Part shown: positions 57,904 to 64,000 of the stretch, piece after piece
How positions within the stretch are numbered: position 1 is the stretch's first letter
Layout: every line of letters starts with the position of its first letter
Source of the DNA: Siccirubricoccus deserti
Lineage (GTDB): Bacteria; Pseudomonadota; Alphaproteobacteria; Acetobacterales; Acetobacteraceae
Assembly: GCF_014283215.1 (NCBI RefSeq)
Contig: NZ_JACOMF010000005.1
Span: 62,001-126,000, forward strand
Direction of reading: 5' to 3'
DNA: 64,000 nucleotides
Program-made: the position numbers and the translations under genes
Notes under the pieces: model-generated
What the model saw: only the letters and a program-made list of their open reading frames with translations
Told to the model about the DNA's origin: nothing
Database searches by the model: none

Positions 57904-58159
57904 CCTCTGCGACTGTCAGGCCGGGGCTCCTACCGGCGGCATGACTGTTCCATTCATGCCGAGGCCGCGACCGGTGCCCGCCGGTCGCGCAAGGCGCGGC
58001 GCATGACGAACGAGGGCCGGTTGATCGGCCGCGCCGCCCGTGAGTGTGGTTGCCCGGGCAGGCGCTGCCCTGGCCAGGCCGGTCATGGGCTGGCAGCATC
58101 GGCGAAACCCCGGCGCAGGCTCCGCCCGCGCCCCAAGCGAAGGGAATGCCGGAAACCCC

Positions 58160-59158
58160 ATGACCCATGCTTCTGCTCTCTCGCGCCGGGGCCTGGCGCT
58201 GCTCGCCGCCGCGCCGGCTCTCGGCCGGCTGACGACGCCGCGCGCCGCCGCGGCGCAGGACATCGCCTGGCCGACCCGTCCGCTGCGTGCCCTGGTCGCC
58301 TTCCCCGCCGGCAGCGGCACCGACTCCCTGGCGCGCTTCTATGGCGAGCGGCTTACGCGCGCCCTCGGCCAGCCGGTGCCGGTGGAGAACATGGGCGGGG
58401 CGAACGGCGTCATCGCCACCCGCGCCGCGGCACGCGCAGCGCCGGATGGCACCACCATGTTCTTCGGCACGGTCTCCACCCATGCCGCCAACCCGAATCT
58501 GCTGCGTGAGCCGGGCTTCGACCCGATCAAGGATTTCGCGCCGGTCTCGCTCATCACCATCAACGCCCTGGCGCTGCTGGTGCGGGCGGATTTCCCGGCG
58601 CGCACCCTGCAGGAGTTCATCGCCCGGGCGCGGAGCGCGGAGAACCCGCTGAATTACGGCATCGGCAATGCCGGCGGCATCGGGGGGACGCATCTGCTGC
58701 GCCAGGCCACCGGCATCCGCGGCGAGCAGATCGCCTATCGCGGCACGCCGGCGGCGATCACCGACCTGCTCGGCGGACGGCTGGACTTCATGGTGGTCGA
58801 CCTCGGCCCGGCGGTGACGCATCTGCGCGCCGGCACACTGCGGGCGCTGGCGGTGACCACGCCGCAGCGGATCGACTTGCTGCCCGATGTGCCGACGATG
58901 CAGGAGGGCGGGCTGGCCGGCTACGATTTCGCCTCCTGGAATGCGGTGTGGATGCCGGCGCGGACCCCGGCGCCGATCATCGCCCGGCTGAACCGCGAGA
59001 TCGTTGCGATCGGCGAAAGCGCCGAGGCGAAGCGCTTCGCCGCCGCCATGGGCGTCACCTCCACGACCAGCACGCCGGAGGCGCTGGAGGCCTTCACCCG
59101 GCGGGAGTTGGCGCTCTGGGAGCGGATCGTGGCGGAGGCGGGGATTCCGAAGGAATGA
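58160..59158 (+). CDS. Tripartite tricarboxylate transporter substrate-binding protein (Bug family)
   Basis: 332 residues. A Tat/Sec-like leader (SRRGLALLAAAPALGRLT then AAAAQD) precedes the Bug fold: RPLRALVAFPAGSGTDSLAR, VPVENMGGANGVIATRAAA, YGIGNAGGIGGTHLLRQATG and PDVPTMQEGGLAGYDF. These periplasmic proteins bind carboxylated or aromatic solutes for TctAB-type transporters, but no tctA or tctB is nearby, as is usual for this very large family. The ATG at 58160 starts the leader. Position suggests uptake of the substrate for the neighbouring enzymes. Confidence 0.92.
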   Translation: MTHASALSRRGLALLAAAPALGRLTTPRAAAAQDIAWPTRPLRALVAFPAGSGTDSLARFYGERLTRALGQPVPVENMGGANGVIATRAAARAAPDGTTMFFGTVSTHAANPNLLREPGFDPIKDFAPVSLITINALALLVRADFPARTLQEFIARARSAENPLNYGIGNAGGIGGTHLLRQATGIRGEQIAYRGTPAAITDLLGGRLDFMVVDLGPAVTHLRAGTLRALAVTTPQRIDLLPDVPTMQEGGLAGYDFASWNAVWMPARTPAPIIARLNREIVAIGESAEAKRFAAAMGVTSTTSTPEALEAFTRRELALWERIVAEAGIPKE

Positions 59159-61296: not shown

Positions 61297-62274
61297 CTAC
61301 CCCGCCCGCGCCCCGATCCGCCGCACCACCGCGCCATACATTTCACGCTCCCGGTGGATGCGGCTGGCGAAGGCCTCGCCGGCCTCGAACCGTGGCATCA
61401 GCCCCATCGGCGCCATCGCCCGCGCCGCCTCTGGCGCCGCCAGGGCGGTCTGCAGCGCCCCGGTCAGCCGGTCGACGACCGGCCGCGCGATGCCGGCGGG
61501 GGCGGCGATGCCGAACCAGGGCATTGCCTCGGCCTTTGCCAGCCCGGCCTCCCGCAGGGTCGGCACATCCGGCAGCTGCGGGTTGCGGGTCTCGCCGATG
61601 GTGGCAATGCCGGTCAGCCTGCCCTCGACGATTGCCGGGATCGCCACCGGGTCGAACAGGAGCTGGATCCGCCCCGCCAGCAGGTCGGTCAGCGAGGGTG
61701 CCGAGCCGCGATAGGGCACGTGCTCCAGCCGGATGCCGGCGGCCTCGGCGAACATCTCGCCGGAGAGCTGGGTGATGGTGCCATTGCCGGCCGAGCCGAA
61801 GCGCAGCTCGCCAGGGTGGGCCTTGGCATGCGCCACCAGCCCGGCGACGTCGCGGAAGGGCAGCGACGGGTGGGCGACGACGATGCCGTAGGCGACCGCG
61901 CTCATCGAAATGGGGGTGAAGGCGGTAGCCGGGTCGTAGGACAGGGACATGATGTGCGGGCTGATGGTCAGCACCGCGGTCGGGAAGGCCAGCAGGGTCA
62001 AGCCGTCCGGCCGGGCTCGGGCGACCACCTCGGCGCCGATGCTGCCGCCGGCGCCGGCGCGGTTCTCGATCACCACCGTCTGGCCGAGCAGCTCGCTCAG
62101 CCGCGGTACCAGCGGGCGGATCGCGAGGTCGGAGGTGCCGCCCGGCGGGTAGGGCACGACCATCGTCAGCGGCCGGCCCTGGTCCTGCTGCGCGCGGGCA
62201 AGGCGTGGGGCGGCGAGCGCCGGCACGGCCGCCAGGGCCAGCAGCCCGCGGCGCCCGGGGTATTGGTGGGCCAT
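61297..62274 (-). CDS. Tripartite tricarboxylate transporter substrate-binding protein (Bug family)
   Basis: 325 residues. The leader GRRGLLALAAVPALAAPRLA is followed by the Bug pattern: RPLTMVVPYPPGGTSDLAIR, VVIENRAGAGGSIGAEVVAR, FGSAGNGTITQLSGEMF and LPDVPTLREAGLAKAEAMPW. It is a periplasmic solute-binding protein for a TctAB-type carrier; the ligand is unknown and no carrier gene is near. An R2 repeat lies 40 bp upstream of its start, as for exbB. It stands alone. Confidence 0.92.
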   Translation of the reverse strand: MAHQYPGRRGLLALAAVPALAAPRLARAQQDQGRPLTMVVPYPPGGTSDLAIRPLVPRLSELLGQTVVIENRAGAGGSIGAEVVARARPDGLTLLAFPTAVLTISPHIMSLSYDPATAFTPISMSAVAYGIVVAHPSLPFRDVAGLVAHAKAHPGELRFGSAGNGTITQLSGEMFAEAAGIRLEHVPYRGSAPSLTDLLAGRIQLLFDPVAIPAIVEGRLTGIATIGETRNPQLPDVPTLREAGLAKAEAMPWFGIAAPAGIARPVVDRLTGALQTALAAPEAARAMAPMGLMPRFEAGEAFASRIHREREMYGAVVRRIGARAG

Positions 62275-62313
62275 GGAGTCCTCCCTGTGTTCTTGCTTAT
62301 GGCGTGGAGTTTA

Positions 62314-62382
62314 GAGCGGTTCCGTTCGCCTTGGCTCACGGAACTGCTCCAGTCGTCTTGTTTGGACGAGCAAATTACTCCG
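62314..62382. repeat. Dispersed repeat R2, copy 2
   Basis: Matches 23265-23336 (shared CGCCTTGGCTCACG and CGAGCAAATT). The central palindrome has decayed to GAGCAAATTACTC. As with copy 1 it is upstream of a minus-strand gene start. Confidence 0.6.
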
Positions 62383-62462
62383 ATCCGGTAATTCAGCCAG
62401 CTCGGAGTCTGCCCTGGCAGACTGCGGAGAAGCGCGGACAACGCTCGTGCCCGCCGCCTCCT

Positions 62463-62548
62463 CGTCGGGGCCGGGCTTGACCCGGTCATCCGTTAGTAAG
62501 CGGCTTCTGCCGAACATATGGATGCGCCGGTCAAGCCCGCGCATGGCG
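62463..62548. repeat. Two-hairpin intergenic repeat, copy 7
   Basis: GGGGCCGGGCTTGACCCGGTC at one end and GATGCGCCGGTCAAGCCCGC followed by GCATGG at the other. It lies between tandem minus-strand genes. Confidence 0.7.
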
Positions 62549-62639
62549 GAAATGGGCGCGCATCGCCATTCTTCCGCAGCCTGCCAGCGCGAACGGACGT
62601 CCCGGCGGCACAGCCATTCTGCAGGCGAGGGAGGTCGGT

Positions 62640-63071
62640 TCACGCGGCGATCCCGAGCAATTCGCGCAGCGCCGGCGCGGGCTGCGCCAGCTCGGCGATG
62701 GTGGTCGCGTCCAGCACCGCGAGGAAGGCCTCGCGCGCCTGGTGCAGCGTCTGCTTGAGCCGGCAGGCCGGCAGGATGGCACAGTCGGCGCCGGCGAAGC
62801 AGGGGACCAGAGCCATGTCCGGCTCGACCCGCCGCACCACCTCGCCGGCGGTGATCTCCGCCGCCGGCCGTCCCAGGCTCAGCCCGCCGCCGCGGCCGCG
62901 CAGGGTGGTCACGTAGCCGGCCTGCCCGAGGAGATGCGCCACCTTCATCAGATGGTTCTCCGAGATGCGGTAGGCCGCAGCCACCTCGGCGATGGTGGCG
63001 CGACCGTCCGGCCGCAGCGCGAGGTGGATCAGCATGCGGAGGGAGAAGTCGGTCAGGGCGGTGAGGCGCAT
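62640..63071 (-). CDS. nsrR: NsrR-type Rrf2 regulator, nitric-oxide sensing
   Basis: 143 residues. The Rrf2 winged helix (LTALTDFSLRMLIHLALRPD, ISENHLMKVAHLLGQAGYV, TLRGRGGGLSLGRPA) is followed by the cluster cysteines Cys91, Cys97 and Cys103. Asp8 is present at the position used as a fourth ligand in NsrR. The spacing matches NsrR, not IscR. It holds a NO-sensitive iron-sulfur cluster and represses NO-defence genes until NO destroys the cluster. The ATG at 63071 fits the family start; 63086 is less likely. It is divergent from a small membrane protein and a globin, with matching operators between them. Confidence 0.92.
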   Translation of the reverse strand: MRLTALTDFSLRMLIHLALRPDGRATIAEVAAAYRISENHLMKVAHLLGQAGYVTTLRGRGGGLSLGRPAAEITAGEVVRRVEPDMALVPCFAGADCAILPACRLKQTLHQAREAFLAVLDATTIAELAQPAPALRELLGIAA

Positions 63072-63077
63072 GGCCAA

Positions 63078-63096
63078 AAGATGCATGGTAAATCTT
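63078..63096. promoter_or_regulatory. Possible second, shorter NsrR-like site at the nsrR start
   Basis: AAGATGCATGGTAAATCTT, with an AAGATGCAT half-site like NsrR boxes but a shortened spacing. It lies just upstream of the nsrR start codon, so it could serve autoregulation. Confidence 0.35.
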
Positions 63097-63121
63097 GCTT
63101 TACAAGCCTCGGCCTTATAAG
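63095..63121 (+). promoter_or_regulatory. Probable promoter of the small protein/haemoglobin operon
   Basis: TTGCTT at 63095-63100 and TATAAG at 63116-63121, 15 bases apart, on the plus strand. The -10 hexamer overlaps the NsrR box, so bound repressor would block RNA polymerase. Spacing is short, hence moderate confidence. Confidence 0.4.
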
Positions 63122-63141
63122 ATGTATGATGTTTACATCTT
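63119..63141. promoter_or_regulatory. NsrR operator
   Basis: A 23-bp palindrome with perfect arms AAGATGTA and TACATCTT around a seven-base centre, closely fitting the known NsrR consensus (AAGATG-N11-CATCTT). It sits between nsrR and the divergent globin operon, ending 11 bases before the first plus-strand start codon. Confidence 0.8.
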
Positions 63142-63152
63142 AACGGGCGCCC

Positions 63153-63305
63153 GTGAGTCCGCTCCAGCTGTTCCTCCTGCCCGGCAACCTGCTCAGCGAT
63201 GCGCTGCACATCGCCGATCCCGACAGCCGCACCATGTTGCGCATCCTGGTGAACATGCTGGTGTGGAACCTGGTGGCGGTGCTCGCCGTGCTGCCCTTCA
63301 TCTGA
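63153..63305 (+). CDS. 50-residue single-span membrane protein under NsrR control
   Basis: Starts at GTG 63153 (VSPLQLFLLPGNLLSDALHI) and ends with a hydrophobic segment of about 20 residues (LVNMLVWNLVAVLAVLPF). The middle is polar (ADPDSRTMLRI). It is too short for usual gene callers. It is likely real because it fills the space between an NsrR operator and the haemoglobin gene, ends 19 bases before that gene, and its codon use fits the genome. No strong ribosome-binding site is seen; translation may be from a short leader. Family not recognised; it may be an NO-linked membrane partner. Confidence 0.6.
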   Translation: MSPLQLFLLPGNLLSDALHIADPDSRTMLRILVNMLVWNLVAVLAVLPFI

Positions 63306-63324
63306 CGCGCCAAGGCCCGAGTTC

Positions 63325-63720
63325 ATGACCGACATCACCGAAGCGGAGATCGCCCTGCTGGTGGAGCGCTTCTACGGCCGCGTCCGCGCCCACCCGTCGC
63401 TCGGCCCGGTCTTCCACGCCGCCATCGGCGAGTCGGAAGCCGCCTGGGACCGGCACCTCGCCAGGCTGCGGCAATTCTGGTCGTCGGTGATGCTGCGCAG
63501 CGGCGCCTATCACGGCGACCCCTACAGCGTGCACCTGCGGCTGCCCGGGCTGACGCCGGCGCTCTTCGCCGATTGGCTCGCGCTGTTCGACACGACCTGC
63601 ACCGAGCTCTTCCCGGAACCGCTCGCAGCGGCATTCCAGGAACGTGCGCAGCGCATCGCCCGCAGCCTGCAAATGGGGCTGTTCGATCGCCTGCCCCCGG
63701 TACGGACTGCGGCCGGCTGA
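63325..63720 (+). CDS. Group III truncated haemoglobin
   Basis: 131 residues. LLVERFYGRVRAHPSLGPVF starts the globin fold. RHLARLRQFWSSVMLRSGAY and the following HGDPYSVHLRL are the group III pattern, with the haem-binding His in this region. Such globins bind O2, CO and NO and are thought to detoxify NO or related species. It follows the 50-residue membrane protein by 19 bases and is divergent from nsrR across a clear NsrR operator, so NO control is well supported by context. Confidence 0.9.
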   Translation: MTDITEAEIALLVERFYGRVRAHPSLGPVFHAAIGESEAAWDRHLARLRQFWSSVMLRSGAYHGDPYSVHLRLPGLTPALFADWLALFDTTCTELFPEPLAAAFQERAQRIARSLQMGLFDRLPPVRTAAG

Positions 63721-64000
63721 TGCGGCCATGCGGCGGGCAGCATGGCGGCAGGGCCCGATAACCCGGCGACAGGACAGCGCTGCAGCGCACCGCGTCGCGC
63801 CATGGCACGATGCCGTGACTTGCCGAAGCCTGCCAAGGATGCGATCCCTACGGTACGATGTTGATCCTTGTGACATTCCACCGTCGCCTCGCTCACGCGG
63901 GCAGTCTGATCACGGGCGTCTAGCCCCGGGTCGGGGTGGTGCGCGTCCGGCGCCTGCCTGAACCCGGGGGATACTCCATCGGAGAATCCTGTTCCGTCGT
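63721..64000. other. 280 bp at the window end without a gene
   Basis: No ORF with protein-like composition, no tRNA and no clear terminator or operator was seen. It may hold the promoter of a gene beyond the window. Confidence 0.4.

Follow-up and report, generated by a model that had tools for sequence, protein, structure and literature searches.

An undescribed family of predicted small membrane proteins, probably an accessory part of the NsrR regulon in Alphaproteobacteria

We examined a locus at positions 62640-63720 of a 64,000-nucleotide stretch of DNA from Siccirubricoccus deserti (the window, which here means the whole stretch that was analysed). A gene for an NsrR-type repressor diverges from a pair formed by a small open reading frame (ORF) and a globin gene, and a palindrome sits between them. 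The features are as follows.

62640..63071, reverse strand: NsrR-type Rrf2 repressor, 143 amino acids (D8, C91/C97/C103; PF02082; PDB 5n07)
63078..63100, forward strand: predicted, imperfect NsrR-like site, AAGATGCATGGTAAATCTTGCTT, which overlaps the -35 TTGCTT and abuts the nsrR start codon
63095..63100, forward strand: putative -35 element, TTGCTT (found upstream in 31 of 36 loci)
63116..63123, forward strand: putative -10 region, TATAAG (63116-63121) or TAAGAT (63118-63123), judged by the spacing to TTGCTT
63119..63141, forward strand: NsrR palindrome, AAGATGTA-N7-TACATCTT (exact match; box kept upstream of 22 of 36 relatives)
63153..63305, forward strand: predicted single-span small membrane protein of a new family, 50 amino acids, GTG start (50 codons plus stop)
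63325..63720, forward strand: group III truncated haemoglobin, 131 amino acids (Y17, H44, H70, W84; PDB 2ig3)

These coordinates agree with the preliminary description of this DNA, in which a 50-residue single-span ORF was the first gene after the box and was followed by the globin. Before the locus, the translations of two genes (58040-59158, forward; 61297-62274, reverse) look by eye like tripartite-tricarboxylate-receptor (Bug-type) proteins. Downstream, a Rnk/GreA-like protein, a stand-alone PAS protein, and a 5-FTHF cyclo-ligase are encoded (L064:7101-9794, in the window's genome but beyond the end of the window; L079:4575-5078). PAS proteins similar to this one occur at four of 29 loci and also beside the Alsobacter globin, and 5-FTHF cyclo-ligase recurs near the loci of the Sulfitobacter group.

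The repressor contains an Rrf2 domain (PF02082, 7e-33; 114 bits versus the Pfam cut-off of 30), and its best match in the PDB is NsrR (5n07, 1.5e-20). Its best NCBIfam model is the NsrR equivalog, at 136.8 bits and below the cut-off of 182; the RirA model gave 113.3 bits versus a cut-off of 193. The cluster ligands of ScNsrR are given as C93, C99, and C105 together with D8 (PMC5411485), and the window's protein has D8 and three cysteines (C91, C97, and C103) with the same spacing of six. The domain, these four residues, and the structure match all support the original naming of the gene as nsrR.

The globin did not reach the cut-off of any Pfam or NCBIfam model. It aligns without gaps, over residues 4-120, to PDB entry 2ig3 (E = 3.2e-22), which we take to be the group III truncated haemoglobin of Campylobacter. 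Y17, H44, and H70 are invariant among nine globins, align to 2ig3, and are present in the window; we assume that they correspond to Tyr B10, His E7, and the proximal His F8. The ungapped match and the retained haem-pocket residues bear out the class that was first assigned. In Campylobacter, the regulator is NssR, unlike the NsrR of this locus, and we know of no small membrane gene beside the group III haemoglobin there.

The operator sequence is also confirmed: AAGATGTATGATGTTTACATCTT occurs exactly at 63119-63141, is the only match in the 64 kb even if up to three mismatches are allowed, and was not found in any of 100 shuffles. Compared by eye to the published NsrR consensus (gATGyAT-N5-ATrCATc; PMC1274295), the operator is a near fit, not letter-perfect, with a TATGATGTTTA core. 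The box was said to overlap a -10 hexamer. The overlap with TATAAG/TAAGAT is there, with TTGCTT upstream, but a generic sigma-70 scan of 62000-64000 found no promoter that reached its threshold, so the promoter call rests on conservation (31 of the 36 loci have TTGCTT in the upstream 130 nt).

To ask how widely the box is kept, we used the window's own pattern on the 100 nt upstream of 36 loci, the window's among them. Boxes with at most 3 mismatches out of 16 were present at 22 loci, versus none in 720 dinucleotide shuffles. The other 14 loci have weak boxes, and these include Neoroseomonas loci that keep only the -35 element. A consensus of 32 aligned upstream regions has a second element, AAGATgcAT...ATaTTGCTT, over the -35. 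In the window, the second NsrR-like site lies some 41 bp before the palindrome, and because it directly precedes the start codon of nsrR, it could serve in autoregulation. In Rhodobacterales carriers (L109, L116, L151, and L154-L156), a repeated and different-looking motif, like TTAGCATTTGnAATGCG, is found upstream of the small gene; it is perhaps a clade-specific operator for an Rrf2 regulator.

We searched for relatives of the small protein with a profile that was blind to gene context. Matches were found in 30 of 397 genomes from the window's family, and 27 of these were clear. Among GTDB contigs, 30 named loci matched (many are from the same genomes as in the family search), with carriers that include Roseococcus, Falsiroseomonas, Neoroseomonas, Pararoseomonas, Limobrevibacterium, Acidisphaera, Alsobacter, and several metagenome-assembled genomes (MAGs). 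Once remote members were added to the profile, 10 of 198 genomes from a second alphaproteobacterial family matched; we take this family to be the Rhodobacter/Roseobacter group because of the likeness to Sulfitobacter proteins. In wider samples the gene is seldom met: searches across the class matched 9 of 385 genomes and searches across the phylum 9 of 398, and several of these matches are due to chance. Of the matches in the window's family, four were kept out of the first set of 36 loci: L032 is frameshifted, L033 and L034 are remote, longer forms that do not adjoin nsrR, and L035 is a likely chance match. From the later searches, we left out L099-L103 in the class (low scores, mostly long frames) and L112-L115 in the phylum (parts of long frames), merged copies of the same gene, and dropped L160, whose protein accession is that of L116. 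The 18 later loci bring the non-redundant total to 54. The longer relatives L033 and L034 come from two genomes of one genus (G299 and G232) and lie away from nsrR. In a MAG labelled Frigidibacter (L065), the copy is 82% identical to the window's protein, from Acetobacteraceae; either it was transferred or the bin is mislabelled.

Among 23 divergent members, P10, G11, and R30 are invariant, and N34 is kept in most members. In 13 of the 14 closest pairs, pN/pS is between 0.04 and 0.34, and the remaining pair differs at a single base. The 145 pairs that are 60% identical or more have a mean pN/pS of 0.43, and changes at third positions are the commonest. Together, the conserved residues and the purifying selection mark this as a selected protein family. 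The window's own copy starts with GTG, and among the 35 loci scored for anti-SD pairing its Shine-Dalgarno sequence is the weakest. Its translation therefore cannot be taken for granted, and the gene may be poorly translated or in early decay. At 63142-63155, the AGGAGG that close relatives carry right after the box has been lost.

The protein was presented as undescribed, and our searches agree. Scans of 26 members against Pfam and NCBIfam gave no significant match, nor did searches of the PDB by profile and by fold with the small protein. With the window's protein and two other members as queries, tblastn against plasmids found nothing, and the matches that were obtained there came only from the Rhodobacterales forms. 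Among the papers listed by searches of the open-licence PMC literature, none describes such a protein in its title or the opening of its abstract, a search with three protein accessions from the family returned no paper, and the available portions of papers on Dinoroseobacter and Magnetospirillum (PMC5398030 and PMC11014258) do not mention it. The expectation that gene calling would miss the gene does not hold in general: five of six plasmid records annotate the relative as "hypothetical protein", and the sixth record is unannotated.

The structure model has helices at residues 3-7, 9-18, and 23-49 (mean pLDDT 82, pTM 0.52), and the most hydrophobic 19-residue segment begins at residue 32 (mean hydropathy 2.28). 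We predict a single-span membrane protein; its topology is probably N-in, as suggested by the arginines that precede the hydrophobic stretch. The preliminary description offered a redox partner of the globin as one possible role. We disfavour this because neither cysteine nor histidine is conserved as a ligand (the best columns have 11 of 23 and 4 of 23, respectively), which makes it unlikely that the protein carries electrons or haem and leaves a binding role.

If the small protein belongs to a nitric oxide (NO) response, then its relatives should have related neighbours. A Rrf2/NsrR-type gene lies within 1.5 kb at 45 of the 54 loci, a group III globin at 33, and one or the other at 48, so the association proposed from the single locus recurs in loci that were found without regard to context; six loci have neither nearby. 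The globin is directly downstream of the small gene at 31 of the 54. Gene order varies: nsrR may be divergent, may follow the globin, or may come immediately after the small gene, and in G813 the small gene comes after the globin. Loci without the globin often keep other NO-response neighbours, such as DUF1971 and flavohaemoglobin (Hmp) in Roseococcus, and elsewhere NnrU, HTHP and then NnrS, HPP, or a cupin with ScdA/hemerythrin farther on. At some loci, nsrR is the only such neighbour. Since the globin can be swapped for DUF1971 and Hmp, for HPP, or for HTHP and NnrS, the small protein appears to belong to the NO regulon and not to the globin alone. The hexameric tyrosine-coordinated haem protein adjoins relatives in L118 (3704-4162) and in L150, and NnrS is next in L150.

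Six Rhodobacterales plasmid records also carry relatives. In all five of the annotated plasmids, a "group III truncated hemoglobin" adjoins the small gene, and an Rrf2 gene adjoins in four of the five and is about 2.8 kb away in the fifth. The S. pontiacus plasmid additionally has hmpA and DUF1971, the W027 plasmid has hemerythrin, nirK, ccoN, and ccoS, and on a Sulfitobacter plasmid the frames of the small gene and the globin overlap by 4 nt.

The converse association is looser. Of the 30 globin loci that scored best, 17 have no small gene in the roughly 3 kb of sequence available. In three genomes (G196, G274, and G304), the box is 46-60 nt before the globin match, which leaves no room for the small ORF, while their congener G140 does have it. 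The ORF is thus conserved as a family, but it is not kept everywhere that the box and globin are kept, which implies that the small protein is accessory. Co-control had also been taken to suggest a role in NO handling. The NO-response context of the 48 loci and the boxes at 22 of 36 loci favour this. The other neighbours speak against an exclusive tie to the globin. Overall, these comparisons of sequences make it very likely that we are dealing with an undescribed alphaproteobacterial family of small membrane proteins with an accessory place in the NsrR regulon.

Two explanations would deny the protein any function of its own. This DNA contains many long spurious frames, and the window copy has a weak Shine-Dalgarno sequence and a GTG start, as might be expected if the frame were open by chance because the DNA is GC-rich, or if it were antisense to an extended nsrR frame. 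However, the protein is conserved in 54 loci, including loci of other gene orders and some that lack nsrR on the opposite strand at that place, and it is under purifying selection, so this explanation is already contradicted for the family; we reject it as scarcely credible. Alternatively, the ORF might be a leader peptide or a translational coupler whose sequence is irrelevant, which would suit its position between promoter and globin and the near or overlapping frames. We consider this very improbable given the low pN/pS in 13 close pairs, the loci that have the small gene but no globin, and the reversed order in G813.

If the accessory protein acts by binding, the question is what it binds. 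We think that the group III globin is the likeliest partner, and a dedicated membrane dock for it, much like the membrane anchor named in the preliminary description, is a tentative possibility to which the arrangement of the genes lends some weight (the globin is often immediately 3', and the frames overlap on the Sulfitobacter plasmid). Also, within the window's family, a group III globin is encoded somewhere in 26 of 27 clear carriers versus 84 of 370 other genomes (Fisher test, 6e-15, ancestry ignored; G232, G299, and G355 were not included, and with them the counts are 26 of 30 versus 84 of 367), although non-adjacent globins in these counts may be of another subtype. A strict partnership is weakened by operons that have one gene without the other: most of the best-scoring globin loci lack the small gene, and some carriers have Hmp/DUF1971, HPP, or HTHP/NnrS in the globin's place. 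Next in our ranking is a membrane haem enzyme, such as a terminal oxidase or NO reductase, of which the small protein would be an accessory subunit made under NO. CydX and CcoQ are small single-span subunits of respiratory enzymes, and the small protein is like them in its size and its single membrane helix, in which R30 and, mostly, N34 are conserved polar residues. Loci without an adjoining globin, and two Sulfitobacter plasmids on which ccoN/ccoS lie at a distance of a few kb, are compatible with such a subunit. But the loci we examined show no consistent linkage to any one oxidase or reductase, and we found no match in sequence or fold to CydX, CcoQ, or a solved respiratory subunit, so we view this role as rather doubtful. 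Otherwise, the partner would be something else. We are similarly sceptical of a broader version, in which NO-induced mini membrane proteins dock truncated haemoglobin at the inner membrane, or Hmp and other NO enzymes where the globin has been replaced.

Known NsrR biology suggests how such a locus would work. NsrR, an Rrf2 Fe-S repressor, would sit on the palindrome that covers the -10 of the operon's promoter, and probably also on the second site over the -35, and so keep both the small gene and the globin silent. NO would damage the cluster, the repressor would leave, and both genes would be made. The small protein might then bind a partner at the inner membrane, which is the weaker part of the model; if the partner is the globin, this soluble protein would be docked close to where NO acts, at the respiratory chain.

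Parts of this arrangement have precedents. In Legionella, glbN-lpg2536 is a globin operon under a predicted NsrR site (Rodionov 2005, PMC1274295), as is the globin gene here, but its partner gene is ferredoxin-reductase-like, whereas here the globin is of group III and comes after a 50-residue single-span membrane protein. The NsrR regulon of gamma- and beta-proteobacteria comprises hmp, dnrN/ytfE, hcp, nnrS, and a tehB-like gene (PMC1274295). Hmp, ScdA/hemerythrin, NnrS, and DUF1971 relatives adjoin the small gene in other genomes, but no single-span small membrane protein is among the members named in the available part of that paper. In Bradyrhizobium, bll6222 is likewise a group III globin from an alphaproteobacterium and belongs to an NO/denitrification regulon; it differs in being controlled by NnrR, an activator, and is listed without a co-transcribed gene in the available text (PMC6710368). 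Early reconstruction found almost no NsrR in alphaproteobacteria (Rodionov 2005, PMC1274295, available portion), and nsrR genes beside hmp and ytfE are described in Paracoccus (PMC5339346, PMC5588039).

NsrR, its box, and the globin are thus known parts, and what is new is the family of small membrane proteins, which would add a recurrent and unnamed member to the alphaproteobacterial NsrR regulon. Truncated globins are single-domain proteins without a reductase domain, and how they work in NO defence is an open question. If the small protein does dock the globin, then globin-based NO defence would have a dedicated membrane partner. For addressing that question, a conserved membrane protein that shares its NO-sensing repressor with a truncated globin is a concrete and genetically tractable candidate.
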